In this document: piece after piece, positions 1 to 32,323 of the stretch
Numbering within the stretch: position 1 is the first letter of the stretch
How the letters are laid out: the number at the start of each line of letters is the position of its first letter
Source of the DNA: Flavobacterium sp. N2038
GTDB lineage: Bacteria > Bacteroidota > Bacteroidia > Flavobacteriales > Flavobacteriaceae
Reading direction: 5' to 3'
Assembly: GCF_025947185.1 (NCBI RefSeq)
Contig: NZ_CP110001.1
Span: 1,922,001 to 1,986,000 of the forward strand
Length of the DNA: 64,000 nucleotides
The notes under the pieces: generated by a model
What the model saw: only the letters and a program-made list of their open reading frames with translations
What the model was told of the DNA's origin: nothing
Databases searched by the model: none
Made by a program: the position numbers and the translations under genes

Positions 1-230
1 CTCCTATTTCTTCCCGTTTTATTCAAAAAGATAATTATATAGCCGGAGAAGCTCTTCGTATAGGATACAGAGTAACCAACAGAGAGTGGCTGAAGAAATC
101 AGGGATGGCCGGATTAGGATTTAATGCATATGCCAATGATTTTTTTAAAGTTTCGACTATGAAAGTCGAACGAGGGATTAGCTATCCTTTTTCAAGAATT
201 TTTTCTTTAAGTCTAAGCGTAACATTTTAA
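1..230 (+). CDS. SusC/RagA-family TonB-dependent outer-membrane porin, C-terminal end only
   Basis: The frame is open from the window edge and stops with TAA at 228-230. The last residues (SLSLSVTF) form the aromatic-ended final beta-strand typical of SusC-type barrels, and a SusD gene follows after 10 bp. SusC proteins form the outer-membrane channel through which a SusD-capped substrate enters with TonB energy. Only about 75 residues are visible, so plug, signal and substrate class cannot be judged. The call rests on the terminal strand motif and the SusD neighbour. Confidence 0.85.
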   Translation, partial: PISSRFIQKDNYIAGEALRIGYRVTNREWLKKSGMAGLGFNAYANDFFKVSTMKVERGISYPFSRIFSLSLSVTF

Positions 231-240
231 TACCATTATT

Positions 241-1686
241 ATGAATCAGTATTTAAATAAAATTGCATTATCAATCCTGATAGCGTTTTCGGCAGTAAGC
301 TGCAGTAATTTTCTGGATGTGGTGCCTCAGGATAAAATTTTAGAGTCTCAAATATTTAAAGATGAAGCCGGAATGCAGAATGTGCATAACGGACTTTATA
401 TGATGCTTGCATCTGATGAGCTTTATGGCAGACAGCTTACAATGGATGCGGTAGATATTTTAGGGCAGCAGTACAATATGCCGGCTTCGCATACAAAAAC
501 TAAAATGGCTATATACGCTTATGCGGAAGCCAATCCAAAAAAAGTTTTCACAGACATTTGGCAAAAAGCTTTTACTACAATTCTGTCTGCCAATAAATTT
601 CTGGAAAGTCTGGAAGAACATGGTGGAATTGTTTCTCAGGAAAAAACAGATCTTTTAAGAGGTGAAGCAATTGCAATACGAGCCATGCTGCATTTTGATA
701 TGCTGAGATTATATGGGCCAATTTACAAAGTAGATCCTTCTATGCCTGCAATACCTTATTATGATGCACCTGTGACTTCAAATAATCCAATTTTATCAGC
801 AAAAGATGCAATGAGTAAGATATTGGCAGATATTGATATGGCATTGACACTGTTAGGAAAAGATCCAATCCTGACAACAGGAAAATACAAAGCTACCAGC
901 GACTATGATGCAAATCCTTATTATTCTCAAAACAGAGGTATGAGAATGAATTATCTTGCCGTAAAATGTTTAAAAGCACGTGTACTTTTATATGCCGGAG
1001 ATAAAGGGGGAGCATCGACAGTAGCAAACGAAGTAATTACGTTTACAAAATCGACGACGTTTTTTCCGTGGACTACCTTTTTAGATGCTACGAATCCTGC
1101 AACTCCTGACAAAATTTTTTCTTCAGAGAACTTCTTTGCTTTAAGTGATTACACTTTGTATAAAACGCAAGAAGATTTGTTTGATTCTAAGTTAGGAGAT
1201 GCCATGATTTATGCTCCATTATTAAACAGATTAAATACAGTTTTTGAGTCGAATGATAATGATTACCGAAGCCTGCCGAGTTGGAAGATTCCTGTTGTGG
1301 GCGGAAAAACGCAAAAAACATTTTTTAAATATGCAGATGTGCCAGACAGCAGAATGGTTTTTCGCTTGCAGATCCCAATGTTCAAGCTTTCAGAAATGTA
1401 TCTAATTGCAGCAGAAACGGCAACAGTACCCGCAGATGGTATTGCTTTACTAAATACGCTTCGTTATAACAGAGGATTAACAAATCTGGCCGCTACTGCA
1501 GTTTTGGCAACAGAAGTGACAAAGGAATACAGGAAAGAATTTATGGGTGAGGGACAGTTGTTCTTTTATTACAAAAGAAATAATACCACTGCAATACCAA
1601 ATGGCTCAGCAGCTTCCGGAAATATTGCAATGGGAGCGCTTCAATATGTTGTGCCTTTGCCGGATGCCGAAATCAACTTTCAATAA
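241..1686 (+). CDS. RagB/SusD family nutrient-uptake outer-membrane lipoprotein
   Basis: 481 aa. The signal peptide ends in a lipobox with the lipidated Cys at residue 21 (AVSC), followed by the typical SusD start (SNFLDVVPQDKI). The helical TPR-like region (GEAIAIRAMLHFDMLRLYG, about residues 140-160) and the C-terminal R-KEF-GEGQLFFYYKR block are classic for the family. SusD caps the SusC channel and binds the ligand at the cell surface. It is the second gene of an operon beginning with SusC. The downstream thioredoxins and peptidases suggest a peptide or protein ligand rather than a glycan; that is inference. Confidence 0.95.
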   Translation: MNQYLNKIALSILIAFSAVSCSNFLDVVPQDKILESQIFKDEAGMQNVHNGLYMMLASDELYGRQLTMDAVDILGQQYNMPASHTKTKMAIYAYAEANPKKVFTDIWQKAFTTILSANKFLESLEEHGGIVSQEKTDLLRGEAIAIRAMLHFDMLRLYGPIYKVDPSMPAIPYYDAPVTSNNPILSAKDAMSKILADIDMALTLLGKDPILTTGKYKATSDYDANPYYSQNRGMRMNYLAVKCLKARVLLYAGDKGGASTVANEVITFTKSTTFFPWTTFLDATNPATPDKIFSSENFFALSDYTLYKTQEDLFDSKLGDAMIYAPLLNRLNTVFESNDNDYRSLPSWKIPVVGGKTQKTFFKYADVPDSRMVFRLQIPMFKLSEMYLIAAETATVPADGIALLNTLRYNRGLTNLAATAVLATEVTKEYRKEFMGEGQLFFYYKRNNTTAIPNGSAASGNIAMGALQYVVPLPDAEINFQ

Positions 1687-1701
1687 TTTAAAAAGATAAA
1701 C

Positions 1702-2475
1702 ATGAAAAAAATATTGATTTTAAGCTTTGCATTTTTATTCTTTTTAGGATTTACTTCATGCAATCAGGAAGAAATAGAAACCTATCACAATACAGATAAC
1801 ATTTATTTTTCGCCATCTGTTTTTGCAATTCCTGTAAATGGGATGGTAATTATGACAGATAGTACAGGATTTAGTTTTGCACTGGATAAAGCAGCAGTAG
1901 TAGAGCGTATTTACAAAATTCCCATTAGAGTACAAGGAAAGGTAAGTGATGTAGACAGAAAAATAAAAGTTGCAATCGATTCAAAAAGTACAGCCATAGA
2001 AGGAACTCATTTTAAGCTTCCGGATAATATTGTTATGCATGCCGGTAAAGAACTTGACTCACTTGAGGTGAAAGTGTTTAGAACTGCTGATATGAAAACG
2101 AATAGCTTTTTGCTAATCTTAAATTTAGAAGAAAACGAATCGTTTACTACTAATATGAAAAGCAAGGTAATCAACCCGCTTACCAACAAAACCATGAGTC
2201 ATATTTCATACAAATTAACATTTGATGATAAGTTATCGCAGCCGCCAGGATGGTTTGCAGGCTTTTTAGGTGTTTTTACAGCAAAGAAATTTTTCTTAAT
2301 GTGCGATTTAATGCATTTAGAACCAAGTATGTTTAATCAGAAGTTGGGATCATTGGGATTGACAATTCCCGATATTCAGTATTATCAAAACTATATGAAA
2401 CGCTATCTGGCAGATCAAAAAGCAGCGGGAAATATTATTTATGAAGATGATGGAAAAGAAATGATCTTTCCTTAA
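1702..2475 (+). CDS. DUF4843-type surface lipoprotein
   Basis: 257 aa. Lipoprotein signal with Cys at residue 20 (FTSC), followed by an acidic stretch and the DNIYFSPS motif that opens DUF4843 domains, which have an Ig-like beta fold. DUF4843 proteins sit beside SusC/SusD pairs in Bacteroidota and are thought to be extra surface subunits of the uptake complex; their activity is not known. It lies 15 bp after susD and 34 bp before the PKD-like gene, so it is very likely co-transcribed. Confidence 0.8.
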   Translation: MKKILILSFAFLFFLGFTSCNQEEIETYHNTDNIYFSPSVFAIPVNGMVIMTDSTGFSFALDKAAVVERIYKIPIRVQGKVSDVDRKIKVAIDSKSTAIEGTHFKLPDNIVMHAGKELDSLEVKVFRTADMKTNSFLLILNLEENESFTTNMKSKVINPLTNKTMSHISYKLTFDDKLSQPPGWFAGFLGVFTAKKFFLMCDLMHLEPSMFNQKLGSLGLTIPDIQYYQNYMKRYLADQKAAGNIIYEDDGKEMIFP

Positions 2476-2509
2476 AACGCATTTATTTTAAACTAAAAAA
2501 TATAACAAG

Positions 2510-4000
2510 ATGTTAAAAAATATAAAAATTCATTTAGCTCTTTCGGCATTGCTTGTTTTGGTTTGCAGTTGTGCCGATGATGAAGGAAATTACAATTATA
2601 ACCCAATCAACGAGATCAACGCAACCGGAATAGAAGCATCGTATACCGCTTATACAGGTGAAAAACTTAAAATTACACCAAATTTAAATGCGACCTTAGA
2701 CGATAGTACCGATCCTGACCGCTATACTTATGAATGGGTAGCTATCAATCCGGTAAAACTTGTAATGGATTCTAAAACTGTGATAGGTACAAATAAAAAT
2801 TTTGATGCCGAATTAAAGTTACCACCTGCAAAATATACCGTTTATTATTTTGTAAAAGACAAAGTGACCGGAATAACCTGGAAGCATGAGCCTTTTACTT
2901 TAAATGTTGTTTCTTCCATTTATGAAGGTTGGATGATTATTGGTGATGTTGACGGAAAACCACGTCTGGATATGATATCAATTCTTCCTGGCGTAGCAAC
3001 GCCGCGTATTATTACAGATGTATTAGATGCTACAGGTTCAGCTCTTAAGTTAACAGGAAAAGCAGTAGATGTAGAATGTTTTAATCAACCCATATCTTCA
3101 CCACTAATTTATGGAATTTACGTAACTACAACAGAAAACGGAACAGCAAGATTAGATCCGGATTCTTTTGGATGGACACTAGCGCAAAATTTAGCGTATG
3201 AAACCGTAGGAGGATCGCTGCCTACCAATTTTGGAGTCGATTTTATGAAATCTAATGGAAGCGGAGAAAATTTGATTTATAGTAAAGGAGATATTTACTA
3301 CTATTACAGGGTATTGCAAATCAAATACGGTCTGCCCCAAAACAAATTAGAATCTGAAACTAAAACTTTTTATGCAGCGCCATTTATTGCAGAGAACGGA
3401 GGTACGTTTGGAACGCCGGTTTTTTATGATCAGACCGCCAGACGTTTTGTAAGATATTCGACTTCAAAAGGAACATGTGCGCCAATGCCACCTGTTACGG
3501 GATCAGACACCGCTTTAGATTGGAATAATACCAATTCTGATTTGATTTATATGACCACTTCTGCCTTCAATCAAGATGAGAACTTTGCAATTCTGAAAAA
3601 TCTGACTTCTGGAAAATTCAATTTGCTTCGTTTCAACAGAGCTTTGGCACAAGTGTATTACAAAGAAATTTTGAACGCACCAGATTTTGATAAAGCCACA
3701 AAATTTGCTGTAAGTCCCGATTCAGGATATTTGTTTTATGCTGTTGGAGGCAAATTATATGAGTATGATAACGGAACCCAAACGGCTAAATTGATGTTGG
3801 ATAAAGGAGCTGAAGAAATCACCTATATTAATTTCAATCCAAGAGCTACAAATAAAAACAAATATTTGATTGTTGGAAGTTATGGAACTACCGGAAAGTT
3901 AGAACTCTATCAGGTTCCTCCGGTAAATGGTAATTTAATTTTATTAAACAAATACGAAGGTTTATGCAAAATTGTTGATGTTGCATACCGCGGTAGATAA
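2510..4000 (+). CDS. PKD-like family surface lipoprotein
   Basis: 496 aa. Lipoprotein signal with the likely acylated Cys at residue 21 (LVCSC), followed by a short acidic segment. The N-terminal third (about residues 40-130) has the beta-sandwich pattern of the PKD-like family found in SusCD loci (TYEWVAINP, KYTVYYFVKDKVTG). The rest looks beta-propeller-like, with repeated strands that include GWMIIGDVDGKPRLDMIS and YLFYAVGGKLYEYD. The likely role is an accessory surface subunit of the SusCD complex. A hairpin follows the stop codon. Confidence 0.75.
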   Translation: MLKNIKIHLALSALLVLVCSCADDEGNYNYNPINEINATGIEASYTAYTGEKLKITPNLNATLDDSTDPDRYTYEWVAINPVKLVMDSKTVIGTNKNFDAELKLPPAKYTVYYFVKDKVTGITWKHEPFTLNVVSSIYEGWMIIGDVDGKPRLDMISILPGVATPRIITDVLDATGSALKLTGKAVDVECFNQPISSPLIYGIYVTTTENGTARLDPDSFGWTLAQNLAYETVGGSLPTNFGVDFMKSNGSGENLIYSKGDIYYYYRVLQIKYGLPQNKLESETKTFYAAPFIAENGGTFGTPVFYDQTARRFVRYSTSKGTCAPMPPVTGSDTALDWNNTNSDLIYMTTSAFNQDENFAILKNLTSGKFNLLRFNRALAQVYYKEILNAPDFDKATKFAVSPDSGYLFYAVGGKLYEYDNGTQTAKLMLDKGAEEITYINFNPRATNKNKYLIVGSYGTTGKLELYQVPPVNGNLILLNKYEGLCKIVDVAYRGR

Positions 4001-4016
4001 CTAAAAACCTTAAACA

Positions 4017-4055
4017 AAGCCGAATGAAGAGCGAAATTCATTCTTCATTCGGTTT
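4017..4055 (+). terminator. Hairpin between the surface module and the enzyme module
   Basis: AAGCCGAATGAAGA pairs with TCTTCATTCGGTTT (about 14 bp with one G-T pair), followed by a weak T-rich stretch. It lies between the PKD-like gene and the thioredoxin gene. It could be a partial terminator or attenuator that lowers expression of the downstream enzymes, or an mRNA stability element. The T-run is short, so read-through is expected. Confidence 0.6.
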
Positions 4056-4072
4056 CTTAAAAACCACATTTT

Positions 4073-4945
4073 ATGAAACGTTTTTTTAAAATCGCAAGTG
4101 CAGTTTTGCTGCTTGCCTGTCCTTCTATTGTCTTAAAAGCACAGACACAATCAACTGATGAAAGTTGGGAATTGGCCAAAAAACAAGCCCAAACGGAGAA
4201 AAAATTAATCTTTGTCGATTTGTATTTTACGGGTTGTATGCCGTGTGCACAAATGGACAAAGAGGTATTTCCGGATCCTAAAGTGGCCACTGTTTTAAGT
4301 GCTGATTTTGTCACTTTCAAATCTGATATTCTTAAAGAAGAAATCGGTAAAAAATTATGTATGAAGTATGGCGTTACCGGATTTCCGACTTTTTTATTTA
4401 TGAGTGCAGATGGAAAAGTAATTGATACTGAAGGCGGTTTTCAAAACGCAGCGCAATTTACAGCCTTACTGCAAAATGCAAAAGAAGCAGCTAAAAAAGG
4501 GCTTTTCAAAAAGTATAGTACGAAAATTGAGGAAAAAGAGTATCCCGATTTTTACAAAGAGGCTTATCTGAACGGAAAAAGGAATGTTTCTTTTGAAACT
4601 GCCGATGCCTATTTAAAAGCACAGCCTTCACTAACTGCCGAAGTTCCATTCGTTATCATAAGTGGTTTAAGAATCGGACGTCAATACGATGATTTTTATT
4701 TAAAGAATGCAAAACAACTTTATAAAGACTACGGTTCCGGAAGCGTTTCTAATCATGTGTTTACCATTTTACAGCGCAAGAAAAAAGACTTTGAAAAAAC
4801 GAAGGATTTAGCGGGTTTCAAAAAATTACTTGAAGAAATGAAACCGCTTTATTCTGCAGAAGACTGGACAAAATTTGAGGGTATTTTATTGAAAGATTTT
4901 GGCGTAGAAAAAGTGGTAACTAATCCCTATACTTTACAAAAGTAA
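4073..4945 (+). CDS. Exported thioredoxin-fold protein (CMPC active site)
   Basis: 290 aa. N-terminal signal sequence (residues 1-23), then a thioredoxin-like domain with active site C55-M-P-C58 and the cis-Pro segment GVTGFPTFLFM. This is the DUF255/thioredoxin_7 style, in which a nucleophilic CxxC protein acts in the periplasm. About 140 residues of helical extension follow the thioredoxin domain. The likely role is reducing or rearranging disulfides of imported or exported polypeptides. It is the first gene of a tightly packed set ending with the M16 peptidase, with 6 bp to the next gene. Confidence 0.85.
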   Translation: MKRFFKIASAVLLLACPSIVLKAQTQSTDESWELAKKQAQTEKKLIFVDLYFTGCMPCAQMDKEVFPDPKVATVLSADFVTFKSDILKEEIGKKLCMKYGVTGFPTFLFMSADGKVIDTEGGFQNAAQFTALLQNAKEAAKKGLFKKYSTKIEEKEYPDFYKEAYLNGKRNVSFETADAYLKAQPSLTAEVPFVIISGLRIGRQYDDFYLKNAKQLYKDYGSGSVSNHVFTILQRKKKDFEKTKDLAGFKKLLEEMKPLYSAEDWTKFEGILLKDFGVEKVVTNPYTLQK

Positions 4946-4951
4946 TCTGAA

Positions 4952-6424
4952 ATGAAAAAGATATTCTTATTTTCAATAATGATTTTTGGATATTCAGTTT
5001 GCGCTCAAAACGGCGTTCAAAAATCTATTGAATCTTTCGAAAAAGCCTTTCAAAATAAAAATTATAATGATATAAAAAATCTTCTGGCGCCAGAATTTAA
5101 TGTTGGAGCCGGAGATTCTTCTTCAAATGAATTTTACTTAAACGCTATTTTTAATGCTTTTCCGGTTTTAGATTCTATCCAAATGGGAAAATCAGTGACT
5201 ATTAAAAATGAAACTTTTGTTTCGGCTGATTTTTGTTTCAAAGGAAAAGAAAAGAAACCCACTCAAATAGTCTTCAATAAAGAAAACAAAATACGCTATG
5301 TTACTTTTTTTGACGGATTATACAGAGTAGATCGAAATGCTGAGGTAAAAAAAATGGCCAGCATTCCGTTTGAAATTGTAGAGAACGGAATCGCCATCAA
5401 AATAAAATTAAACAAAGCAAACAGAGAATTTTTAATGCTTTTTGATACGGGCGCAGACGGAATGGCTCTAAATCCGGACAGTGCTTATAAAGCAGGAGTT
5501 GTGGTTACTAAAAGTAAATCGGCATCTGTGGTTGGCGGAAGTCAGCAAGTGCAGTATTCGGCAGATAATACGATTTATATTGGCGATCAGGTTTTAAAAA
5601 ATCAAGGCTTGGTCATTTTTCCAAAACATGGCGTTTATGACGGATTATTTGGCGCCAATTTGCTGCGTAATTATATCACGTCTGTCAATTTTGACACCAT
5701 GACAATTGACTTGTACAATTTTGGAAATTTCAATTATTGGGGAAAAGCAAAACCATTAGTTTTTGATTATAAATCGGGACTTCCGGTAGTACAAATGAAT
5801 CTGACTTTTGAAGATAAAAAAACAGTCGAAGGCAATTTTACTTTTGATACCGGCGCTGGTTATGATCTAATTGCTTACGGCCCTTTTAATCACAAAAATA
5901 ATCTGGAAACCAGTTTAAAAAACGAATATACATCTGTCAATTACAGCTTAGGAAAACAAACTAAAATTGTGGGAGGCGCAATACCAAATGTTGCTATTAA
6001 CGGAAATAATTTTCCAGATGTAACAATTGCGGTTCAGGAATATGACGAAGCCAATAAAAACTGGGCTTTTGCAGATGGATCTTTGGGAATTGATTTAATA
6101 AAACGCTTCAATTTTACAATAGATGTACTCCATAAGACCGTTTATTTGGAACCCAATAAAAACTTTAAAAAGAGATCTTCATTTTATATCGCCGGACTTA
6201 ATTTGGATTTTGATGAAAACCAGAATCTTATAGTAAAACGAATTTTAGATCAGGAAAACGAAGATTTGAAGAAAGTCAAAACCGGTGCAAAAGTTACACA
6301 GATTAATGATTTTGAAGCCAAAGATTTATTGAAACCGGAAAATCTTAAAAAACTAAAAGAGAATAAAGAAAGTAAAGACCTGATTATTGAACAAGAGGAT
6401 CAGTCAATGCGCATTACAATTTAA
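4952..6424 (+). CDS. Exported aspartyl-protease-like protein with two DTG motifs
   Basis: 490 aa with signal peptide (cleavage near CAQ-N). The N-terminal region (about 20-120) resembles an NTF2-like domain (IESFEKAFQNKNYNDIKNLLAPEF). Two retropepsin-like halves follow: FDTGAD with D165 and FDTGAG with D299. Both have the catalytic DTG triad, so one chain may form a pepsin-like bilobed site. The C-terminal stretch (VKTGAKVTQINDFEAKDLL) resembles a shortened PDZ segment. The likely role is periplasmic or surface proteolysis. It sits between two thioredoxins, which supports a peptide-processing operon. Confidence 0.75.
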   Translation: MKKIFLFSIMIFGYSVCAQNGVQKSIESFEKAFQNKNYNDIKNLLAPEFNVGAGDSSSNEFYLNAIFNAFPVLDSIQMGKSVTIKNETFVSADFCFKGKEKKPTQIVFNKENKIRYVTFFDGLYRVDRNAEVKKMASIPFEIVENGIAIKIKLNKANREFLMLFDTGADGMALNPDSAYKAGVVVTKSKSASVVGGSQQVQYSADNTIYIGDQVLKNQGLVIFPKHGVYDGLFGANLLRNYITSVNFDTMTIDLYNFGNFNYWGKAKPLVFDYKSGLPVVQMNLTFEDKKTVEGNFTFDTGAGYDLIAYGPFNHKNNLETSLKNEYTSVNYSLGKQTKIVGGAIPNVAINGNNFPDVTIAVQEYDEANKNWAFADGSLGIDLIKRFNFTIDVLHKTVYLEPNKNFKKRSSFYIAGLNLDFDENQNLIVKRILDQENEDLKKVKTGAKVTQINDFEAKDLLKPENLKKLKENKESKDLIIEQEDQSMRITI

Positions 6425-6449
6425 AACAATCAAAAAACAAATAACTATT

Positions 6450-7832
6450 ATGAAAAAACACATTTTTTATTTCATTTTGACCTTTATTGCGGTTCAAATG
6501 AGTTTTGCTTCCAGCATTTCAGAATATGCAGTAATTAAAGGAACAGTTTCGATTCCGGATTTTATAGCAAAAGAAGTTACACTTTATAATGTTGAAGAGG
6601 GAAAGCCAGCGGTTGCTGCAACTGCTAAAGTCAATACTCTGGGGGAATTTGGCTTTATGATACCAGTTTCAGCGTCTGGCTTCTATTATGTAGATTACGG
6701 ACAATTTAAGGGAAGAACTCAGTTAATTCGTTTGTATTTAGAACCAAAATTGGATATCAATTTGGTTATCAACAAAGAACATTATGTTTTGAGCGGAAAA
6801 AATGTGGGTCAGAATGTTCTGGTTCAGAAAGCAAACGAAATTTACAATGAATTTGCACCATTTGCAAGACTTGGAGGAAATGTAACTTATGTACAATTTT
6901 ATCCTTGGCTTGATAAAGGTGTAGCAAAAGCAAATGAATTTTCAAAATCAATAAATACAAAAGATGCTAATTTCAATAAGTTATTAAAATTGGCAGTAGC
7001 AACAGATGTTGAAGAATCGACTTATACTTTTTTTAGATTACCTAGAACTGCATTTCCGGATAAAGACGATCGTCCTGCAGTTATAAAAACGTGGCAGACA
7101 GATAAAAAGTTTACAGATCCGGATTTGTTAAAATTACATAACGGTGTCACTTTAATGTCAAATTATTTCTTTTATATAAGTGTAAGCGGAGCCGCAGTTC
7201 CAAAGCGTTTAGATATTGTTGAAACATTAAATCATATTACTGATCCAGCTTTAAAGGATGTGTACCTTCGTGAAGAAGTTGCAACGTCAAGAATGAAAAT
7301 TGAAGAATATGAAAAAGTAGCACCAAGTATAAAACCTTATATGATTTCTGATGCCAGTAAAACATTTTTAGTTGAATACGAAAAAGTATTGCATAAAAAC
7401 GTAGGTCAGAAAGGATTAAATTTTTCATATAATGACATAAATGATAAACCGGTTTCATTTTCTGATTTCAAAGGAAAATTTGTTTACATTGATTTATGGG
7501 CAACCTGGTGTGGACCTTGTAAAGCTGAAATTCCTCACATGAAAAAAATTGAAGAAGATTATCACGGAAAAAATATTGTATTCGTAAGTCTTTCGTTAGA
7601 TAAATCAAAAGATGCACAAAAATGGAAAGATTTTGTTACTAAAGAGCAATTAAAAGGAATTCAGTTAATGGCCGATAAAGATTTCAATTCTGATGTCGCT
7701 AAAAATTATGAAGTAAATGCGATTCCGAGATTTTTATTGTTCGATACTAAAGGTAACATTATCAACACCGATGCTTTGCGTCCATCTAATCCTGAGTTGA
7801 GAGAACAACTGGATAAATTATTGAAAGGTTAA
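6450..7832 (+). CDS. TlpA-family exported thiol-disulfide oxidoreductase
   Basis: 460 aa. The ATG at 6450 is preferred over an upstream in-frame ATG at 6387 that lies inside the previous gene, because a signal peptide (MKKHIFYFILTFIAVQMSFA) begins here. The N-terminal half is a beta-rich DUF4369-like region (KGTVSIPDFIAKEVTLYN). The C-terminal half is a TlpA/ResA thioredoxin domain with W-C354-G-P-C357 and the cis-Pro loop VNAIPRFLLFD. Proteins of this build are reduced by membrane partners of the DsbD/CcdA type; dsbD lies 3 kb downstream. Confidence 0.92.
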   Translation: MKKHIFYFILTFIAVQMSFASSISEYAVIKGTVSIPDFIAKEVTLYNVEEGKPAVAATAKVNTLGEFGFMIPVSASGFYYVDYGQFKGRTQLIRLYLEPKLDINLVINKEHYVLSGKNVGQNVLVQKANEIYNEFAPFARLGGNVTYVQFYPWLDKGVAKANEFSKSINTKDANFNKLLKLAVATDVEESTYTFFRLPRTAFPDKDDRPAVIKTWQTDKKFTDPDLLKLHNGVTLMSNYFFYISVSGAAVPKRLDIVETLNHITDPALKDVYLREEVATSRMKIEEYEKVAPSIKPYMISDASKTFLVEYEKVLHKNVGQKGLNFSYNDINDKPVSFSDFKGKFVYIDLWATWCGPCKAEIPHMKKIEEDYHGKNIVFVSLSLDKSKDAQKWKDFVTKEQLKGIQLMADKDFNSDVAKNYEVNAIPRFLLFDTKGNIINTDALRPSNPELREQLDKLLKG

Positions 7833-7842
7833 TATAAGTTTT

Positions 7843-10653
7843 ATGAAATACAGCAAAAAAATATCAGTTTTACTGCTTTTTATCGGAAGCTTGACATTCG
7901 CACAGAATTACAAGACAAATGACCCAATTGCAGTCAATCAGAAAATAAAAAAAGGCGTTTTGCCAAACGGTATGACGTATTATATTTACCCGACAGATGT
8001 AAATAAAAATACGGCAAGTTATTACATCATTCAAAATGTAGGTTCGATTTTAGAAAACGATCAGCAGAAAGGTTTAGCGCATTTTCTGGAACATATGGCG
8101 TTTAACGGAACCAAAAATTTTGAAGGAAAAGGCATTCTGAATACGCTTCAGAAACAAGGAGCCGTTTTCGGAAAAAATATTAATGCTTACACTAGCACAG
8201 ACGAAACGGTTTACAATTTAGACAATATTCCGTCAAAAGATGGCGGAGTAGTAGATACTTGTTTGCTTGTTTTGCACGACTGGTCTAACTTTTTGTCTCT
8301 GACAAATGAAGAAATCGATGCCGAACGCGGTGTAATTACCGAAGAATGGCGTACCAGACAAAATGCAAGAGCAAGAATTTACAATCAGTTAGCGCCGTAT
8401 TATTACAACAATTCGCTGTATGCAGACCGTATGCCAATTGGAGATATGGATATTGTTAAGAATTTTAAATATCAGGTTTTAAAAGATTTTTATAAAGATT
8501 GGTACCGTCCCGATTTACAGGCAATCGCAATTGTTGGAGATATCAATGCGGACGAAATTGAGGCAAAAATCAAAAAGCTTTTTGCTGATATTCCAGCACC
8601 TCAAAATCCTAAAAAACGTTTTGAAATTGCTATTCCAGAAAGAGCAGAACCAACTTTTAAACTGGCTTTAGACAAGGAAATTTCAGCTTCGGGAATTAGT
8701 TATATGATTCGTCATGTTTCTGAAAAACCAACCGGAACTTATGCCGATTTAGAAAAATCTACACAACGTAGCATAGCTTTTTCTATTTTGAATAATCGTC
8801 TGGGAGAAATGGCGCAAAAACAAGAATGCCCGTTTAAAGGCGCACAAATTGGGTATCAGAGTTATTCTCGTCTTAACGATATCTGGGTTTTATCTGTTTC
8901 ACCAAAACCGGGAAAACAAGAAGAAGCGTTTGCAATGGTAATGAAAGAATGGGTTCGTGCTTATAAATTTGGTTTTTCAAAAGGAGAAATCGAAAGAGCA
9001 GTAACTGAAACCATTTCGGGCTACGAAAATTATTTAGAAAAAATAAATGAGATTTCACATAAGGATGTCATCGGAATGGTAAAAGATGATTACCTAAATC
9101 ACGAAGTTATTGCCGATCCTAATGCAGAATTTGAAATAACAAAAAGCATTTTAAAAAATATTGACACCAAAATTCTTCAGGAACAAATTAGTAAATTATA
9201 CACCTCGCAAAACCGTGTTGTAACAGTTACTGGTGTAGAGGGTGAAGAAAATTTAACGCAGGAAAAAGCATTTGCTGCTATTCAGAAAGCAGAGAACGAT
9301 GCGTCGTTGCAGCCTTATGTGGACACTTTTGAAGGAAAAACACTTTTAGGAAATCTGAAAATCAATTCTGGAAAAATTGTTTCGGAGAAAAAAGAAACGG
9401 CGATCGATGCTACCACTTTTGTATTGAGCAATGGTGTAAAAGTACATTACAAATTTGCCGATAAAAATAAAAAAGAAGTAGAGCTTAAAGCCGAAAGTTT
9501 TGGCGGAACTTCATTGTATGAGCCGCAAGATCTTCCATCAATCGGGCGCACTACAGCTTTGGCAATGATGTCTGGTGTTGGAGAACTTTCAAATGTTGAT
9601 TTAGACAAAGTTTTAAAAGGAAAAATTGCCAATTCTTCTGTAAGCATCAGTTCACTTAAAGAAACCGTTTCGGGTTCGGCAAATGTAAAAGATATCGAAA
9701 CGATGATGCAATTGATTCATTTGCGTTTTGTACAGCCAAGATTTGATAATCAGATGTATGCGCTATTAAAACAAAGATTAGAAAATTCGCTTAAAAACAG
9801 AGCAAATGATATCAATGCAAAAATGGAAGACAGTTTATCTGTGGTAGTTTATGGAAAAAACAACCCGAGAGTACAGCTGTTTAATCAAAAATATATCGAC
9901 GATTTATCTTTTGATAAAATGAAAGCGTTCTATCTGGATCGTTTTGCAGATGTATCTAATTTTGAGTTTTACATTGTAGGAGATGTTTCACCAGAAGTTT
10001 TAAAACCCTTGCTGGAAAAATATATTGCCAGTATAAACGGGATTAAACGTAAAGAGAAATTTAAAAGCGATGTTCCAAAATGGGTTTCAAACAAAATAGA
10101 TCAAGATGTTTTTATTAAAATGCAAACACCAAAAAGCTCGGTTCGTATTGCATTTGTAAAAGATTGTGCGTTTACACAAAAAAACAGAATCTTAGTTTCT
10201 TTCTTGTCTGATGTTCTTACGTTGCGCTATACAGAAAGTCTGCGTGAGAAAGAGGGCGGAACTTATGGTGCACAGGTAAAAGCCAGTATTGATAAATTGC
10301 CGGTTTCAAAAGCAAACCTTCAGATTTTATTTGATTGTGATGCAGAAAAAGTAGAACACTTACTGCCAATTGTGTATCAGGAAATTGATAAAATCAAAAA
10401 AGGTGAAATCGCGGCAGAAGATGTAGAAAAAACGAGAACGAATTACCTTAAATCCAAAGAAGACAGCAAAAACTTCAATTCTTACAGTATGAATTTGATT
10501 TATAATTATTTTGAAAATGATTATAATATGAATGATCCTGCTACTTACGAAAATATTGTAAAAAGCGTTACCGCAAAAGATATTCAGGAATTTGCCACTT
10601 CACTTTTAAGTAAAGCCGACGCTATGGAGGTTGTTTTCAAGCCATTAAAATAA
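7843..10653 (+). CDS. M16-family zinc metallopeptidase, exported, two-domain
   Basis: 936 aa with signal peptide (LTFAQNYK). The inverted zinc motif HFLEH is at H80-E83-H84 (GLAHFLEHMAFNGTKNF), and E168 in AERGVITEEW is the likely third zinc ligand. The second, non-catalytic half keeps the R/Y segment (SLREKEGGTYGAQV) that helps substrate binding in pitrilysin/insulysin enzymes. Members cut peptides small enough to fit a closed chamber. As the last gene of the tight operon (10 bp after TlpA) it would degrade peptides delivered and reduced by the preceding proteins. Confidence 0.94.
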   Translation: MKYSKKISVLLLFIGSLTFAQNYKTNDPIAVNQKIKKGVLPNGMTYYIYPTDVNKNTASYYIIQNVGSILENDQQKGLAHFLEHMAFNGTKNFEGKGILNTLQKQGAVFGKNINAYTSTDETVYNLDNIPSKDGGVVDTCLLVLHDWSNFLSLTNEEIDAERGVITEEWRTRQNARARIYNQLAPYYYNNSLYADRMPIGDMDIVKNFKYQVLKDFYKDWYRPDLQAIAIVGDINADEIEAKIKKLFADIPAPQNPKKRFEIAIPERAEPTFKLALDKEISASGISYMIRHVSEKPTGTYADLEKSTQRSIAFSILNNRLGEMAQKQECPFKGAQIGYQSYSRLNDIWVLSVSPKPGKQEEAFAMVMKEWVRAYKFGFSKGEIERAVTETISGYENYLEKINEISHKDVIGMVKDDYLNHEVIADPNAEFEITKSILKNIDTKILQEQISKLYTSQNRVVTVTGVEGEENLTQEKAFAAIQKAENDASLQPYVDTFEGKTLLGNLKINSGKIVSEKKETAIDATTFVLSNGVKVHYKFADKNKKEVELKAESFGGTSLYEPQDLPSIGRTTALAMMSGVGELSNVDLDKVLKGKIANSSVSISSLKETVSGSANVKDIETMMQLIHLRFVQPRFDNQMYALLKQRLENSLKNRANDINAKMEDSLSVVVYGKNNPRVQLFNQKYIDDLSFDKMKAFYLDRFADVSNFEFYIVGDVSPEVLKPLLEKYIASINGIKRKEKFKSDVPKWVSNKIDQDVFIKMQTPKSSVRIAFVKDCAFTQKNRILVSFLSDVLTLRYTESLREKEGGTYGAQVKASIDKLPVSKANLQILFDCDAEKVEHLLPIVYQEIDKIKKGEIAAEDVEKTRTNYLKSKEDSKNFNSYSMNLIYNYFENDYNMNDPATYENIVKSVTAKDIQEFATSLLSKADAMEVVFKPLK

Positions 10654-10750
10654 ATTTTATCAGTTTTTTTTATAATAGAGTTTAATTGTTTTCCCTATCA
10701 ATTATTATTTTGAGTTAGTAAGCAAATTAGTTGTTATAGCGGATTATCAG

Positions 10751-10788
10751 GAGGGTTGTTTTTTGCTATTCAGCCCTCTTTTTTTTAA
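10751..10788 (+). terminator. Terminator-like hairpin immediately upstream of dsbD
   Basis: GAGGGTT pairs with AGCCCTC (7 bp with one G-T pair) around a 13-14 nt loop and is followed by eight T. It ends the peptidase operon. It also stops only about 10 bp before the dsbD ATG, so any dsbD transcript starting upstream must read through it. It may be a shared terminator and leader attenuator. Confidence 0.7.
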
Positions 10789-10797
10789 ATTTAACCC

Positions 10798-12843
10798 ATG
10801 AACAAGAACATATTTTTAGGGAGTCTTTTGTTGTTGTTTTCAGTAATAACACAGGCTCAAATTTATAATCCGTTAAAATGGAAAACCAGTATCGAGAAAA
10901 TTTCCGATACAGAATACGAGTTGCAGGCAAAAGCCATAATCGAATCGGGCTGGCATTTATACAGTCAGGAAGTTTCAGATGGAGGTCCGATTCCTACCCG
11001 TTTTACCTTTACAAAAACGCCCGAATTTCAGTTAATTGGGGAGGTAAAAGAAGAAAAAGGAAAAACGATCAACGATCCGGTTTTTAAAATGCAGATTAAG
11101 TTCTTTGAGAAGGAAACTACTTTTTCACAACGCATAAAAATACTTTCAGCTAAGCCTTTCAAAATCAAAACAGAAGTAGAGTTTATGGTTTGCAATGATG
11201 AAAACTGTCTTCCGCCAAGTTCAGATGAACTGGAGTTTGCTGTTAGCCCATCCGCCAAAGCGATAACTTTAATTGAAAGTAATGTAAAGAAAGAAATTAA
11301 AGCAACAGAAATCGATTCTTCGATTTCTGATGTTAAAGAAAAAACAGAGGAAATAATCCAGACAGAAATTGTAAAAACGCGCAAGAAAGAGCTGAAAAAA
11401 CAGCAACCGGAAACGGAATCAAGAAGTTTGTGGGCGATTTTTTTACTGTCTTTTTTCTCCGGATTTGCAGCCTTGTTAACGCCTTGTGTTTTTCCGATGA
11501 TTCCAATGACGGTAAGTTTTTTTACCAAGCAAAGTAAAACCAAATCACAAGGGATTAGAAAAGCTGTTTTTTACGGAATTTCGATTATCGCTATTTATAT
11601 CTTTTTGGGTGCGATTGTAACCTGGGTTTTTGGTGCAGATTCTCTAAACGCACTTTCAACGAATGTTTGGTTTAACCTTGTATTTTTTGTGCTTTTAATG
11701 TTTTTTGCCTTTTCTTTTTTAGGAGCATTCGAAATTATGCTTCCAAATGCGTGGGCAAACAAAGTAGATTCGCAGGCAGATAAAGGCGGAATTGTTGGAA
11801 TATTATTCATGGCTTTGGCTTTGGCGATTGTCTCATTTTCTTGTACGGGACCAATTGTTGGGACTTTACTTGTTGAAGCTGCTTCGCGTGGAGGAATTGC
11901 ACCTTTTGTCGGAATGTTTGGTTTTTCTCTGGCTCTGGCATTGCCTTTTACCTTATTTGCGGCATTTCCGGGTTGGTTAAATTCACTGCCAAAATCGGGT
12001 GGCTGGCTGAATTCGGTTAAAGTATTTTTAGGGTTTCTGGAAATGGCTTTGGCTTTTAAATTTTTATCCAATGCCGATTTGGTTTTGCAATTACACTGGC
12101 TGGAAAGAGAAACTTTTTTGGCTATTTGGATTGCGATTTTCGGGACATTGACTTTTTATTTATTTGGGAAAATTCAGTTGCCTCATGATAGTCCGGTTTC
12201 CAATATTAGTGTTGGAAGATTAGGACTTGGTGTTTTGGTTTTGTCTTTTACCATTTATCTCATTCCCGGAATTTGGGGCGCACCATTGAAAATGATTAGC
12301 GGTTTTCCGCCGCCAATGCATTATAGCGAAATTCCGAATGGATTAAGTAATTCAGCATCACGTGAAATAACAGAAAATCTGCCGGAAGGAGCAGAGCTTG
12401 GCCCTCACGATATTATGGCCTTTACCGATTATGATTTAGGAATGCAATATGCCAAAAAAATTGGGAAACCGGTTATGATTGACTTTACAGGACATGCCTG
12501 TGTAAATTGTCGCAAGATGGAAGACAATGTTTGGTCTGACGATAAGGTGCAGAAAATTCTAAAAGGCGAAGTAGTTTTGATTTCTTTGTATGTTGACGAT
12601 AAAAGAGAATTGGCTTCACATGAACAAAAAGTTTCTGAATTAACAGGTAAAAAAATAAAATATATTGGGCAGAAATGGAGTGAATTTCAAACCATAAAAT
12701 ATAAAACAAATGCACAGCCTTTTTATGTATTAGTTGATCACAATGGAGAACCACTAAACGAAACTTCAGCCTATAATCCTGATGTTACAGAATATCTGGA
12801 TTGGTTAAAAAATGGAATTTCTAATTTTAAAGCAGATATTTAA
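10798..12843 (+). CDS. dsbD: Protein-disulfide reductase DsbD (thiol:disulfide interchange protein)
   Basis: 681 aa with the three-part DsbD layout. A signal peptide is followed by an N-terminal periplasmic domain with C132 and C137 (VCNDENCLPPS). The membrane core of about eight helices carries C230 (LTPCVFPMIP) and C349 (FSCTGP). The C-terminal periplasmic thioredoxin domain has C568-V-N-C571 (GHACVNCRKM). It moves electrons from cytosolic thioredoxin to periplasmic reductants. It lies on the same strand just after the operon with two exported thioredoxins, so it probably keeps them reduced. A Lys/Glu-rich linker (about residues 160-205) precedes the membrane core. Confidence 0.93.
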   Translation: MNKNIFLGSLLLLFSVITQAQIYNPLKWKTSIEKISDTEYELQAKAIIESGWHLYSQEVSDGGPIPTRFTFTKTPEFQLIGEVKEEKGKTINDPVFKMQIKFFEKETTFSQRIKILSAKPFKIKTEVEFMVCNDENCLPPSSDELEFAVSPSAKAITLIESNVKKEIKATEIDSSISDVKEKTEEIIQTEIVKTRKKELKKQQPETESRSLWAIFLLSFFSGFAALLTPCVFPMIPMTVSFFTKQSKTKSQGIRKAVFYGISIIAIYIFLGAIVTWVFGADSLNALSTNVWFNLVFFVLLMFFAFSFLGAFEIMLPNAWANKVDSQADKGGIVGILFMALALAIVSFSCTGPIVGTLLVEAASRGGIAPFVGMFGFSLALALPFTLFAAFPGWLNSLPKSGGWLNSVKVFLGFLEMALAFKFLSNADLVLQLHWLERETFLAIWIAIFGTLTFYLFGKIQLPHDSPVSNISVGRLGLGVLVLSFTIYLIPGIWGAPLKMISGFPPPMHYSEIPNGLSNSASREITENLPEGAELGPHDIMAFTDYDLGMQYAKKIGKPVMIDFTGHACVNCRKMEDNVWSDDKVQKILKGEVVLISLYVDDKRELASHEQKVSELTGKKIKYIGQKWSEFQTIKYKTNAQPFYVLVDHNGEPLNETSAYNPDVTEYLDWLKNGISNFKADI

Positions 12844-12987
12844 AGATCAATAATTTTTAAAAATTCAGGAGAAATTGAATGTCCTTCATAAAAAAAGGAT
12901 TTAATACACAAAAGCATAGCCTGTGTTTGAAATGTTTTTCAGGATCAAAAAGCGATGTCTCTATGTGCTTAAATTAATTGAAATAAG

Positions 12988-13025
12988 AAAAGCGGAACAA
13001 TCGAAGAAGTTGTTTCGCTTTTTTT
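12988..13025 (+). terminator. Bidirectional terminator between dsbD and the MocR gene
   Basis: AAAGCGGAACAA pairs with TTGTTTCGCTTT (12 bp, one G-T) and is followed by a T-run. It lies between two convergent genes, and the reverse strand also ends in T-rich sequence. Confidence 0.8.
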
Positions 13026-13049
13026 ATTGGAAAAAATCAGAATCAAAAA

Positions 13050-14552
13050 TTAGATTTTATCTTTATTGATGTTCATCGCATCAATAGACTGACATAAAAT
13101 TGATACCGCTTTTTCCATTTCTTCTTTCTCCAGATGTCCAAATCCAAGTCGGGTCGCTGTGAGATCTTTTGTTTGGTATAAAATAGTTTTAGGCAGGAAT
13201 AATCCGTTTGCGGCACATTCTTTCTGCAGGGTTATAAGATTAAAGTTTTCCAGCCATTCAATCCAGATAGCCAATCCGCGCAACGGAACTTTAAATTTAA
13301 TTCGGCTCCCTAATTTTTCATTCAGTAAACCAACAAAATAATCCCTGCGCTCTTTATATATTTTTTTATTCTTTTTTGAAAGTCGGTGTACTTCACCTTC
13401 GTTAATCCATTCTGTCAGAACTTGTTCCTTTAGAACATCAATTCCCGGTTCCAGAATATTTTGGTGTTTTTCTAATTCTTTTATAAAGTCCGGTGGAGCG
13501 GTAACAAAACCATAGCTAAATCCCAATGGAAGCGATTTTCCAAATGAGCCAATATAAACCACTTTCTGATTCGTATCGAAAGCTGCCAAAGGTAAAACCG
13601 GGTTATTATCAAAATGGAAATCAAAATCATAATCATCTTCCAGAATCACAAAACCGTATTGATTAGCGAGTTCCAGAACTTCCATTCTTCTTTTGGCACT
13701 TAAACCAATTGTTGTTGGATAATGAAAATTGGAAGTAAGATATAAAACCCTGATTTCAGATTCTTCGCAAATTTTTTTCAGTCTGTTAGTATCAATTCCG
13801 TTCTGGTCTACAGGTATCGTAATAATCTGCGCGCCAGTGCTCGTTAACGTCATATTGGATATAAAATAACCCGGAGAAGCTACCACAACTTTATCTCCCG
13901 GAGCAATTAATACTTTGGTAACCAGATAAAGACTGATTTCATGACTGCTTGTAGTGAGAAGGTTCGAAGTCGAAATTCGAATACCTCGCGTAAGATTCAG
14001 ATAATTGGAGAAATGCGTTTTAAAATTCAAATGAGACTGCATCTGAATTTGTTCGTAGGTTTTAGAAGTTTTCTGCCGTTTAAGTTTAGAAACATACAAT
14101 CTGGCCAAAATATCATTCTGAATCAATCTCAAATCAGGCATTCCGTCATTGAATTGATAAGGAAGTTCGCTGTTTTCGAAAGGATTTTCGAGAATTGTAG
14201 ATTGTTTAAAACTAAAACCTTTGCTTTCTATTGACAAACTGGATTCTCTGATTGGAGTAAATTCTGATTTGCCTTTCTTTTTATTTTGCGATAAAATAAA
14301 AGTGCCTTTATTAGGTAATGTTTCAATCCAGCCCTGAGCTTCCAGATCCTGAAAGGCCTTGATAAGCGTGTTTCTGTTAACAGACAATAGTTTACATAAT
14401 ATGCGGGTACCCGGTAGTTTTGTTCCTTCAGGAAGAAATCCGGTCTGAATCGCTTTAATAAATTCAAAAACGATCTGAAGATAAATTGCAGTGTTTTCTT
14501 CAGGTTTTAACTGAATAAAGCTTTTAAAAGGAATTTCAACCGGACCACTCAT
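13050..14552 (-). CDS. MocR/PdxR-type regulator (GntR helix-turn-helix fused to a PLP aminotransferase fold)
   Basis: 500 aa from the ATG at 14552. A longer frame starts at 14603, but its first 17 residues look unlike the family and would run into the divergent promoter. The N-terminal GntR winged helix (about 20-90: SVNRNTLIKAFQDLEAQGWIETLPNKGTFIL) is followed by a class I aminotransferase domain with EDDYDFDFHFD and GSFGKSLPLG; K339 is the likely PLP lysine. Such proteins sense PLP or amines and often control the divergent gene. Here that is a TonB receptor, so the regulated process may be uptake of a vitamin B6-like or amine compound (inference). Confidence 0.9.
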   Translation of the reverse strand: MSGPVEIPFKSFIQLKPEENTAIYLQIVFEFIKAIQTGFLPEGTKLPGTRILCKLLSVNRNTLIKAFQDLEAQGWIETLPNKGTFILSQNKKKGKSEFTPIRESSLSIESKGFSFKQSTILENPFENSELPYQFNDGMPDLRLIQNDILARLYVSKLKRQKTSKTYEQIQMQSHLNFKTHFSNYLNLTRGIRISTSNLLTTSSHEISLYLVTKVLIAPGDKVVVASPGYFISNMTLTSTGAQIITIPVDQNGIDTNRLKKICEESEIRVLYLTSNFHYPTTIGLSAKRRMEVLELANQYGFVILEDDYDFDFHFDNNPVLPLAAFDTNQKVVYIGSFGKSLPLGFSYGFVTAPPDFIKELEKHQNILEPGIDVLKEQVLTEWINEGEVHRLSKKNKKIYKERRDYFVGLLNEKLGSRIKFKVPLRGLAIWIEWLENFNLITLQKECAANGLFLPKTILYQTKDLTATRLGFGHLEKEEMEKAVSILCQSIDAMNINKDKI

Positions 14553-14565
14553 AATTATAAAACTG

Positions 14566-14600
14566 GTATACTTTATTAGTACGGCAAGATAGTACTTTTG
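14566..14600 (+). promoter_or_regulatory. Promoter of the TonB receptor with repeated TAGTAC/GTATAC boxes
   Basis: A perfect -7 element TACTTTTG lies at 14593-14600, about 18 bp before the receptor ATG. GTATAC (14566-14571) and two TAGTAC copies (14577-14582 and 14590-14595) lie in the gap between the divergent MocR and receptor genes. The last copy overlaps the -7 element. The repeats are likely MocR binding sites. No good TTG -33 box is visible, which fits activator dependence. Confidence 0.6.
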
Positions 14601-14618
14601 CAAAAATTTTAAACCAGA

Positions 14619-18334: not shown

Positions 18335-19558
18335 ATGAAAAAAAACACGCATTATTTTTTACTTGCCTTGTTTTCAAGTATTTTTTTTAGCTGTAGTGAT
18401 CACGACATCGATGGTGATTTGTATCAGCCCAATTATTTGCCCAGCATAGATGCTACAAACCTGCCAAAGGAGAATCGGCCAATGACGATGTTTGAAGATG
18501 CTGAAAGTCCTTCAAAAATGTATGACAATGCAGACCGTTGGTTTAGAGTTAATCAGCCCCTTCAAATTATTCAAAAAGGAAAAGATTCTGTACAAGTATC
18601 ACTTTACTCTCCAGTTGGACTTTCAGATGTCAAGATTTATGCAAAATTGCCTAATTACGAGAAGCGATTTTTAATTTACAACTTTACAAAAATCCCTGCC
18701 TTTCACAGATCGTTTCATAAAATTCCAATGACAACCGGAAAAAATGACTATTTGTTAGAAACAGGAAACACCGTTACAATTGATAAAATTGATGGTTTTT
18801 CTTCTGGAGCTGTTGAATTTTCAGTTGAATCTGAAGATCCGTTATTTCAGAAATTCAAAAAAATAAAATCATCACATTTAGTTCGTTTCAGCGACTCTTA
18901 TCATACGAATGAATTAGGGAAATATCTGCCGATGAATCCTGTATTGGCCAAAGAAGCGATCACGATGATTATTAATTATTCTTATGCATTAAGTCATCCT
19001 TTGTACTACAGTACTTTTGTCAATTTTGATAAATACAAGCAAGAACAGGCAGCAACGGCAGGAACAGCTGTAAATGGTGCTTTAAATTGGCATGGAAATG
19101 CAGAAGATACAAATGGAGTTTACGATTATCTGACTAAAGAGGAAATTGAAAAAATATATCTGAATTATCTGGATGGCCGTAACCTGAATATGGCAATGGT
19201 TGGTGGTGATTCTGCCTGGGGTGGAGGAGCTTTGGCCTCACAATGGGAATCTGGTTATGTAACCGGACATTGGTTAGGCGAAATGTCGGTTTGGTCACAT
19301 GAATATTCACATCATATTGGTTTTAGCCATTCGAGCAATTTAGCAAATAGTGGCGAAGGAGGAGGGCAGCAGGAAATGTTGACTCATTTTTATAAATATT
19401 TAATTTATTTAAATGACCTTCCTTTTACAGATCCGGAGGTTTTAAAAGGATGGACAAAAACAGCTTATTTAACCGGAACGTACAAGAAACCAGTATTTAC
19501 TATTAATCCAAAAAATCCGTTTTTACTGAAATATAAAGGTGAAGGAAAATGGAAATAA
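18335..19558 (+). CDS. Metzincin-like zinc metallopeptidase lipoprotein
   Basis: 407 aa. Lipoprotein signal with Cys at residue 20 (FFSC). The C-terminal third carries H322-E-Y-S-H326-H-I-G-F-S-H332, an exact HExxHxxGxxH metzincin zinc site. M348 in QQEML is a possible Met-turn. The region between about residues 60 and 140 is beta-rich (SVQVSLYSPVGLSDVKIYAK). I do not recognise a named family. A surface protease that acts with the following propeller lipoprotein is likely. It has its own promoter and a tight junction with the next gene. Confidence 0.75.
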   Translation: MKKNTHYFLLALFSSIFFSCSDHDIDGDLYQPNYLPSIDATNLPKENRPMTMFEDAESPSKMYDNADRWFRVNQPLQIIQKGKDSVQVSLYSPVGLSDVKIYAKLPNYEKRFLIYNFTKIPAFHRSFHKIPMTTGKNDYLLETGNTVTIDKIDGFSSGAVEFSVESEDPLFQKFKKIKSSHLVRFSDSYHTNELGKYLPMNPVLAKEAITMIINYSYALSHPLYYSTFVNFDKYKQEQAATAGTAVNGALNWHGNAEDTNGVYDYLTKEEIEKIYLNYLDGRNLNMAMVGGDSAWGGGALASQWESGYVTGHWLGEMSVWSHEYSHHIGFSHSSNLANSGEGGGQQEMLTHFYKYLIYLNDLPFTDPEVLKGWTKTAYLTGTYKKPVFTINPKNPFLLKYKGEGKWK

Positions 19559-32268: not shown

Positions 32269-32323
32269 ATCAACCTAAAAACAAAAAGCCTGTAAACATT
32301 GAGTTTACAGGCTTTTTTGTGGA
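32269..32323 (+). repeat. Direct repeat B at the 3' end of ssrA
   Basis: Partner of the repeat at 31319-31374. It contains the ssrA terminator and reaches the first bases of the tmRNA acceptor stem (GTGGA). tmRNA 3' ends are common integration sites, so the pair may be attachment-site remnants. Confidence 0.8.
32283..32318 (-). terminator. ssrA terminator, copy 4 of the repeated stem
   Basis: The same 15-bp stem with loop ATTGA on the plus strand. Read on the minus strand it follows the tmRNA 3' end directly and has a T-run on each side, so it works in both directions. Confidence 0.9.

Follow-up and report, generated by a model that had tools for sequence, protein, structure and literature searches.

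TonB-dependent importers of the SusCD type have been studied mostly for glycans and free peptides. BT2261-64 of Bacteroides thetaiotaomicron is a peptide-loading SusCD complex, and the SusCD shufflons of Bacteroides fragilis provide receptor variety with a breakpoint inside susC. In the available portions of earlier papers, peptide-loading SusCD complexes, import linked to an M16 in Proteobacteria and mosaic alleles of RagAB are already described (PMC11817032, PMC6793856, PMC5266723), RagAB occurs in four divergent types within a surface-protein mosaic unrelated to the single-nucleotide polymorphism phylogeny (PMC5266723, PMC11817032), and FusC is part of a Brownian ratchet which engages a linear segment of ferredoxin (PMC6071955). 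Here we analyse a 64,000-nucleotide stretch of the Flavobacterium sp. N2038 genome (NZ_CP110001.1, positions 1,922,001 to 1,986,000; hereafter the window), at the start of which a SusCD pair and two further lipoproteins are followed by two thioredoxins, two peptidases and a DsbD. Judging from the genes and their relatives, we consider it fairly probable that this locus imports peptides or small proteins with disulfide bonds, powered by TonB, and has a periplasmic line of its own which reduces and cuts them.

The host is a soil-type bacterium whose genome is a single contig of 4.67 Mb, and the loci nearest to that of the window come from Flavobacterium. The full order, all on the plus strand, is extracytoplasmic function (ECF) sigma factor, FecR, SusC, SusD, DUF4843, PKD_2, thioredoxin, aspartyl protease, TlpA, M16 and DsbD, and all genes named in the original prediction, which was made from the letters of the window alone, are present in the order and on the strand it gave. 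The SusC gene that it placed in the window does exist directly upstream of SusD, but only its last 230 bases (1..230, plus strand) fall inside; the rest of this 1126-residue protein is encoded upstream (L009 10850-14230), as are the ECF sigma factor and FecR which precede it. SusC has a weak STN match at residues 46-76 (20.5 bits, below the cut-off of 28.4; the sigma and FecR genes are above cut-off), a CarbopepD_reg domain (137-217), a plug (228-347) and the barrel thereafter, and SusC/RagA proteins are among its PDB matches. The adjoining gene (241..1686) encodes the SusD-like lipoprotein lid, with Pfam SusD-like_3 and SusD_RagB matches above cut-off, SusD homologues in the PDB and the lipobox SCSNFLD; SusC and SusD side by side make this a SusCD-type TonB-dependent uptake locus. 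The DUF4843 lipoprotein (1702..2475; PF16132, 79.8 bits) has an N-terminal domain which an AlphaFold2 model (pLDDT, the predicted local distance difference test, 83) and fold searches describe as a beta-sandwich resembling Calx-beta/DUF1735, and the PKD_2 lipoprotein (2510..4000; PKD2 below) joins a PKD-like domain to a beta-propeller (residues ~134-496) resembling BtuG; searched by sequence against the PDB, both returned weak, unrelated matches only. The enzymes comprise an exported thioredoxin-fold protein with a CMPC motif (4073..4945; Pfam, motif in orthologues), an exported retropepsin-like aspartyl protease with two DTG motifs (4952..6424; PF13650 at 53.5 bits, homologue names), an exported TlpA-like thioredoxin with CGPC (6450..7832; Pfam, motif in orthologues), a single-chain M16 peptidase of PqqL/FusC-type length with HFLEH (7843..10653; Pfam, PDB matches) and a DsbD with six redox cysteines (10798..12843; Pfam), the second copy in the genome. 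The gaps in the enzyme run are 6, 25 and 10 bp, and that before DsbD is 144 bp.

To follow this arrangement in relatives we took the best 80 of 158 matches by M16 similarity, representing 76 distinct loci to which the fractions for each identity band refer. Partners were called with profiles derived from the genes of the window together with orthologous sequences (E 0.001, within 11 kb, same strand), and partner absences are upper bounds because these profiles miss divergent SusD genes, five of which were found by Pfam only. Where the M16 is at least 70% identical, SusC/D and the thioredoxin were present at 36/36 loci and DsbD at 35/36. At 44-62% identity, 8 of 21 loci had all three partners, three SusC/D and thioredoxin only, four (Cellulophaga) thioredoxin and DsbD only and six none, and at 32-36% (mostly Bacteroidales and Sphingobacteria) partners were called at 0/19 loci. 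Within the genus, 11 of 150 genomes hold an M16 at least 78% identical (the next-best full-length match is 61%), and all 11 have DUF4843 no more than 6.5 kb from the M16 and the complete order from FecR to DsbD, so the gene order which the original prediction proposed to search for recurs in other genomes. A thioredoxin-fold gene also adjoins 16 of the 18 distinct places with DUF4843 above cut-off (the exceptions are L111 and L113). These observations support one conserved unit. The original prediction was to be abandoned if the neighbours proved not to be conserved together; they are in close Flavobacterium relatives, but distant relatives partly lose or recombine the parts. F. johnsoniae strain CI04 (L047) is among the carriers of the locus. 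One locus, L027, has two additional open-reading frames (602 and 147 residues; 7677-9940) between TlpA and M16.

Within this unit the receptor genes and the enzyme genes vary differently between strains. Pairwise identities among 33 sequences with all nine genes (L027, L028, L030 and L045, in which SusC is cut or genes are missing, were left out) form two blocks, with correlations of 0.31-0.74 among the receptor genes, 0.44-0.89 among the five enzyme genes and -0.19 to 0.22 across the blocks. Compared with rpoB in 30 Flavobacterium genomes (rpoB was matched in all 32; L010, L017 and the window genome left out), Spearman correlations were 0.14 for SusC, -0.03 for SusD, -0.11 for DUF4843 and -0.18 for PKD2, with 48, 619, 847 and 993 of 999 permutations as high, respectively, whereas each of the five enzyme genes reached 0.55-0.76 with 0/999 permutations. 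FecR goes with the enzymes (0.62-0.74) and with rpoB (0.59). The M16-centred loci lack about the first third of SusC, for which the N-terminal part was taken from L171-L200, and SusC itself is divided: segments covering residues 1-240 correlate at 0.27-0.78 with the enzymes and at -0.03 to 0.05 with the other receptor genes, those from residue 241 on at -0.03 to 0.27 with the enzymes and 0.17 to 0.65 with the receptor genes. All segments of SusD, DUF4843 and PKD2 (to residue 480 of 496) remain at or below 0.20 with the enzymes, while the first thioredoxin segment stands at 0.74 with the enzyme average (which includes the thioredoxin itself) and 0.69 with rpoB. Three receptor types, defined on receptor data, are rejected as clades when tested with a quick tree of the thioredoxin, the aspartyl protease and TlpA (approximately unbiased test, p-AU 8e-7, 4e-44 and 7e-40). 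There are 17 receptor types at 85% identity among the 30 genomes. For example, L011 (strain RCM74) and L038 (strain CGMCC 1.6859), both named F. anhuiense, share on average ~97% identity across the enzyme genes but 70% across the receptor genes. As a control, a SusC from a GH16 locus present in 12 of the 30 genomes gave 0.75 with rpoB (0/999), and in the same 12 genomes the present locus gave 0.17 for SusC, -0.14 for SusD and from 0.31 (DsbD) to 0.80 for the enzymes; this is a single control SusC, and other SusCDs may also be exchanged.

The junctions can be followed in three sister pairs with near-identical backgrounds (L011/L038, L023/L039 and L024/L025). In all three, DNA identity inside susC drops from 90-100% to 63-75% in the next segments and thereafter stays between 44 and 90%, and it recovers within the terminal ~340 bp of the gene for PKD2 in two pairs and within its terminal 40 bp in one. 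When the FecR-SusC spacing is used to convert positions by hand, the susC junctions fall at about residues 80-140 of the window protein, after the weak STN match and at or before CarbopepD_reg, so that the part of SusC expected to signal to FecR is not separated from it; over the whole set, junctions seem to range up to about residue 240, at the plug start. The sequence comparisons indicate that the receptor cassette is exchanged between strains by recombination on a constant signalling and enzyme module. A shufflon operating within the genome was rejected on the single DUF4843 in this genome: a search for silent cassettes, covering DUF4843 and not pieces without it or invertases, found none, and of the 11 locus-bearing genomes of the genus nine carry a single DUF4843 above cut-off and two (G239 and G303) carry two, the second lying in a different, divergent locus. 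Exchange for new cargo and exchange for escape from phages or bacteriocins are both candidate explanations. That the receptor types differ through the use of the surface complex by phages or bacteriocins, and not through their substrates, has in our estimate a little less than an even chance: the exchanged part consists of exposed proteins and the enzymes are constant, as though the cargo were unchanged, but the plug is exchanged too.

The nature of the cargo is suggested by divergent loci with the same theme, of which we hand-picked 20, comprising 18 M16 places (33-61% identity) and two DUF4843 places, with Pfam run on representatives and on unrecognised neighbours. By profiles and Pfam together, 14 of the 18 M16 places have SusC or SusD with a thioredoxin-fold gene; in the other four, thioredoxins stand without SusC/D in the part of L157 and L158 that was covered, SusCD stands without a thioredoxin in L170, and L167 has neither. 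L157 and L158 show another arrangement of the same parts, the M16 standing with two thioredoxins and a second M16. Among scanned loci, the aspartyl protease is replaced by an S33/S15/S9-like hydrolase, with DsbD, in L159, L164 and L166, by S9 in L160, L162 and L169 and by an S8 subtilase in L044 and L046, and L152, a DUF4843 locus without M16, has a trypsin-like PDZ protease. SusCD, a thioredoxin-fold protein and M16 thus recur jointly across paralogous loci while the second hydrolase varies, from which we infer a polypeptide substrate, and the repeated presence of thioredoxins suggests that this substrate contains disulfides.

Counts across the genome indicate that the grouping is more than a chance one. 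The genome holds one DUF4843, two DsbD_TM, M16 at three places, 17 SusD_RagB and 18 AhpC-TSA matches, and in a hand comparison for AhpC-TSA, the thioredoxin family searched genome-wide, only one of the 17 SusD_RagB matches, that of this locus, has such a gene within 7 kb; the next-nearest are a 152-residue frame 7.9 kb from a SusD and another 8.2 kb from a sub-threshold SusD match. The other DsbD, 59% identical, sits separately at 3.94 Mb, so the operon has a DsbD of its own. Pfam found no carbohydrate-active enzyme (CAZyme) domain in the eight window genes, nor in the sigma factor, FecR or SusC, and the locus is not a glycan polysaccharide utilization locus (PUL) by that measure; five other SusCD loci of this genome with scanned genes have glycoside hydrolases (three), a sulfatase (one) or an esterase-like hydrolase (one). 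A search of a plasmid collection gave no match.

The active sites are kept in the orthologues. Among 35 thioredoxin orthologues the motif is CMPC in 26 and CAPC in nine, CGPC is retained in 37/37 TlpA, HFLEH in 57/57 M16, both DTG motifs in 35/35 aspartyl proteases and the six redox cysteines in 48/48 DsbD sequences. In the three lipoproteins the lipobox is followed by at least two acidic residues in 30/36, 35/35 and 36/37 of the lipobox-positive sequences (37 examined each), which we take to be the Bacteroidota surface-export signal, and the enzymes have, by eye, signal-peptide-like N-termini and no lipobox. Counted beyond residue 40, the cysteines have a median of 0 for SusC, 1 for SusD, for DUF4843 and for the aspartyl protease, 3 for M16 and 4 for PKD2; the SusC value derives from mostly partial sequences, and the complete window SusC has one cysteine, in the signal region. 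Because they are so poor in cysteine, SusC, SusD, DUF4843 and the aspartyl protease are not obvious thioredoxin clients.

The original prediction, which had joined import, reduction and proteolysis into a single task, gains from the conserved unit, the lipoboxes, the second DsbD, the cysteine-poor SusC, SusD, DUF4843 and aspartyl protease and the lack of CAZymes, and the function itself stays a working model in which localisation, substrate, order of steps and joint function are all inferred. SusD, DUF4843 and the propeller lipoprotein would capture a polypeptide at the surface and SusC would import it. The DsbD of the locus would carry electrons out of the cytoplasm and hand them to the CxPC thioredoxin and to TlpA for the opening of disulfides, and the aspartyl protease and the clam-shell M16 peptidase would cleave the chain. 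The M16 may also grip the incoming chain from inside, and by analogy could act here as a FusC-like ratchet. The N-terminal domain of SusC would signal to FecR and the sigma factor, and the receptor half, which begins at about residue 100-240 of SusC and runs to the end of the propeller gene, is swapped between strains by recombination, the signalling end of SusC and the enzymes staying with the host.

Several observations weigh against the import model or against a clean division into an exchanged and a constant half. PKD2 and M16, with median cysteine counts of four and three, could be internal thioredoxin clients. SusC retains a slight correlation with rpoB (0.14; 48 of 999), DsbD reaches only 0.31 in the 12 control genomes, and M16 is partly discordant, being 78-80% identical to that of the window in L024, L025, L026 and L029, where TlpA is 89-94% identical; in these four the M16 may have been exchanged separately. 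No partner was called at 6/21 loci in the 44-62% M16 band (L041-L043, L055, L057 and L063, of which L043 is a 7.8-kb contig). L111 and L113 have DUF4843 and no detected thioredoxin, L170 has SusCD and M16 and again no detected thioredoxin, and L030 and L045 (F. chilense and F. phragmitis) are without both thioredoxin and aspartyl protease, L045 carrying an S9 dipeptidyl-peptidase IV-like gene after M16 at the expected place of DsbD. In Cellulophaga (L049-51 and L072) M16, TlpA and DsbD are present, but SusC/D was not recognised within ~10 kb. Finally, DsbD could be transcribed separately, given the 144-bp gap ahead of it. The Bacteroidetes promoter motif was absent from L009 and occurred four times in the window, always beyond 39 kb and not above chance; a sigma-70 scan of 1-13300 gave 40 sites against 46.0 in shuffled sequences, and a terminator scan of the same region gave 9 against 8.6, with no terminator-like site on the plus strand in the gaps, so the scans bear on transcription neither way. 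The SusCD loci L111 (10771-13014) and L170 (5239-7494), in which no thioredoxin was detected, encode instead an ABC-2-type membrane protein with ABC_transp_aux.

Three other functions were weighed against the import of disulfide-containing polypeptides. FecR/sigma pairs serve iron uptake and also non-iron SusCD, which tempers the signalling genes at this locus as an argument for cofactor piracy, the reading in which the cell takes in a protein that bears iron or another cofactor and breaks it down to gain that cofactor, not amino acids, with the thioredoxins aiding release. Fus in Pectobacterium works in this way, according to the available text (PMC6793856, PMC6071955), and the M16 is a single-chain enzyme of the FusC/PqqL type, matching PqqL (1.1e-73) and FusC (5.5e-42) near full length. 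However, its closest structurally known relative is 9ldy (4.8e-167), not FusC, none of the 19 loci in the 32-36% M16 band has a partner, and FusA-, FusB- and FusD-like genes were not recognised among the operon genes, and we judge this reading unlikely. We give somewhat less credit still to the redox genes being mere neighbours of the importer which serve general thiol maintenance in the envelope: the 144-bp gap and the M16-TlpA-DsbD set retained in Cellulophaga, where SusCD was not recognised nearby, speak for it, but the genome has another DsbD elsewhere, the thioredoxins are embedded in a run with gaps of 6-25 bp and the association recurs at divergent SusCD loci. Uptake of a small ligand such as a corrinoid or a peptide siderophore, bound by the propeller lipoprotein as BtuG binds B12, is improbable, and cobalamin in particular was rejected, since the propeller fold is BtuG-like yet no cobalamin riboswitch matched at the gathering score (a diverged one could escape).

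Elsewhere in the window, a TonB-dependent receptor (plug and barrel) and a divergently oriented, putative MocR-like regulator (judged by eye) adjoin the operon at 13050-16484. A lipoprotein at 18335-19558 carries HEYSHHIGFSH (HExxHxxGxxH, metzincin-like) and has no Pfam match, its PDB match being the metzincin metallopeptidase 9tpb (E 3.4e-10). A transfer-messenger RNA gene lies at 32317-32714 (minus strand) and a Flavo-1 RNA at 37200-37275 (plus strand).

If import at this locus is tied to thiol reduction and two peptidases, disulfide-bonded proteins would be a defined food source, and such a conserved set would provide a genetic means of asking whether proteins pass through SusCD in folded form. 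Because strains differ in the receptor half while the enzyme half stays constant, and because the junctions fall where the signalling region ends, nature has in effect run an experiment here (e.g. L011/L038). A bolder extension, which we put forward as speculative and rather doubtful, is a modular machine for protein piracy, in which a ~7-kb receptor cassette would be traded among flavobacteria onto a constant chassis for signalling and digestion, DsbD and the thioredoxins would unfold disulfide-locked proteins and the M16 would pull them through the channel; if true, strains would change their prey protein in one recombination event with the digestive line unchanged.

In the open-licence literature, of which most subscription journals are not part and whose result lists were seen in part, we found neither SusCD joined to a reductive and proteolytic line nor the exchange of a receptor half with junctions inside susC. 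The locus shares SusC, SusD and extra surface lipoproteins with glycan PULs, and peptidases and reductases here replace the CAZymes; the original prediction that it is unlike the loci which normally use SusCD therefore holds against glycan loci, but peptide-loading SusCD was already known from RagAB. With BtuB-BtuG it shares a propeller lipoprotein beside a TonB-dependent receptor, but at ~10% identity, with an additional PKD domain and no riboswitch found. Unlike in the B. fragilis shufflons, there is one DUF4843 cassette in this genome and exchange is between strains. RagAB of Porphyromonas gingivalis, in the available accounts, has in common with it the SusC/SusD pair (for peptides in RagAB) and divergent, mosaic receptor types; compared with RagAB and BT2263-64, the exchange here takes in two more lipoproteins and has its junctions within SusC, and the operon goes on with thioredoxins, peptidases and DsbD. 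DUF4843 and PKD2 have no sequence match to the BT2261/2262 chains, and for SusC the matches 8aa4 (1.7e-49) and 5t3r (2.6e-42), named SusC homolog, outscore RagA (1.1e-33) and BT_2264 (3e-21). Fus and YddB-PqqL likewise combine a TonB-dependent receptor with a single-chain periplasmic M16, and protein import is proposed for them in the available part of a study which covers Proteobacteria and whose main text, to the same extent, is without thioredoxin, TlpA, SusD or disulfide (PMC6793856). By comparison, the receptor here is SusC/SusD with FecR and a sigma factor, not FusA, and thioredoxins, an aspartyl protease and DsbD are added; no FusA-type receptor was among its 11 PDB matches at E 0.01 (nine SusC/RagA, two TonB-linked/TonB-dependent), and Pfam found among the operon genes no TonB domain of the kind that a TonB-like FusB would have. 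The exchanged receptor cassette thus resembles both the mosaicism of RagAB and import of the Fus type, but it is neither of them.

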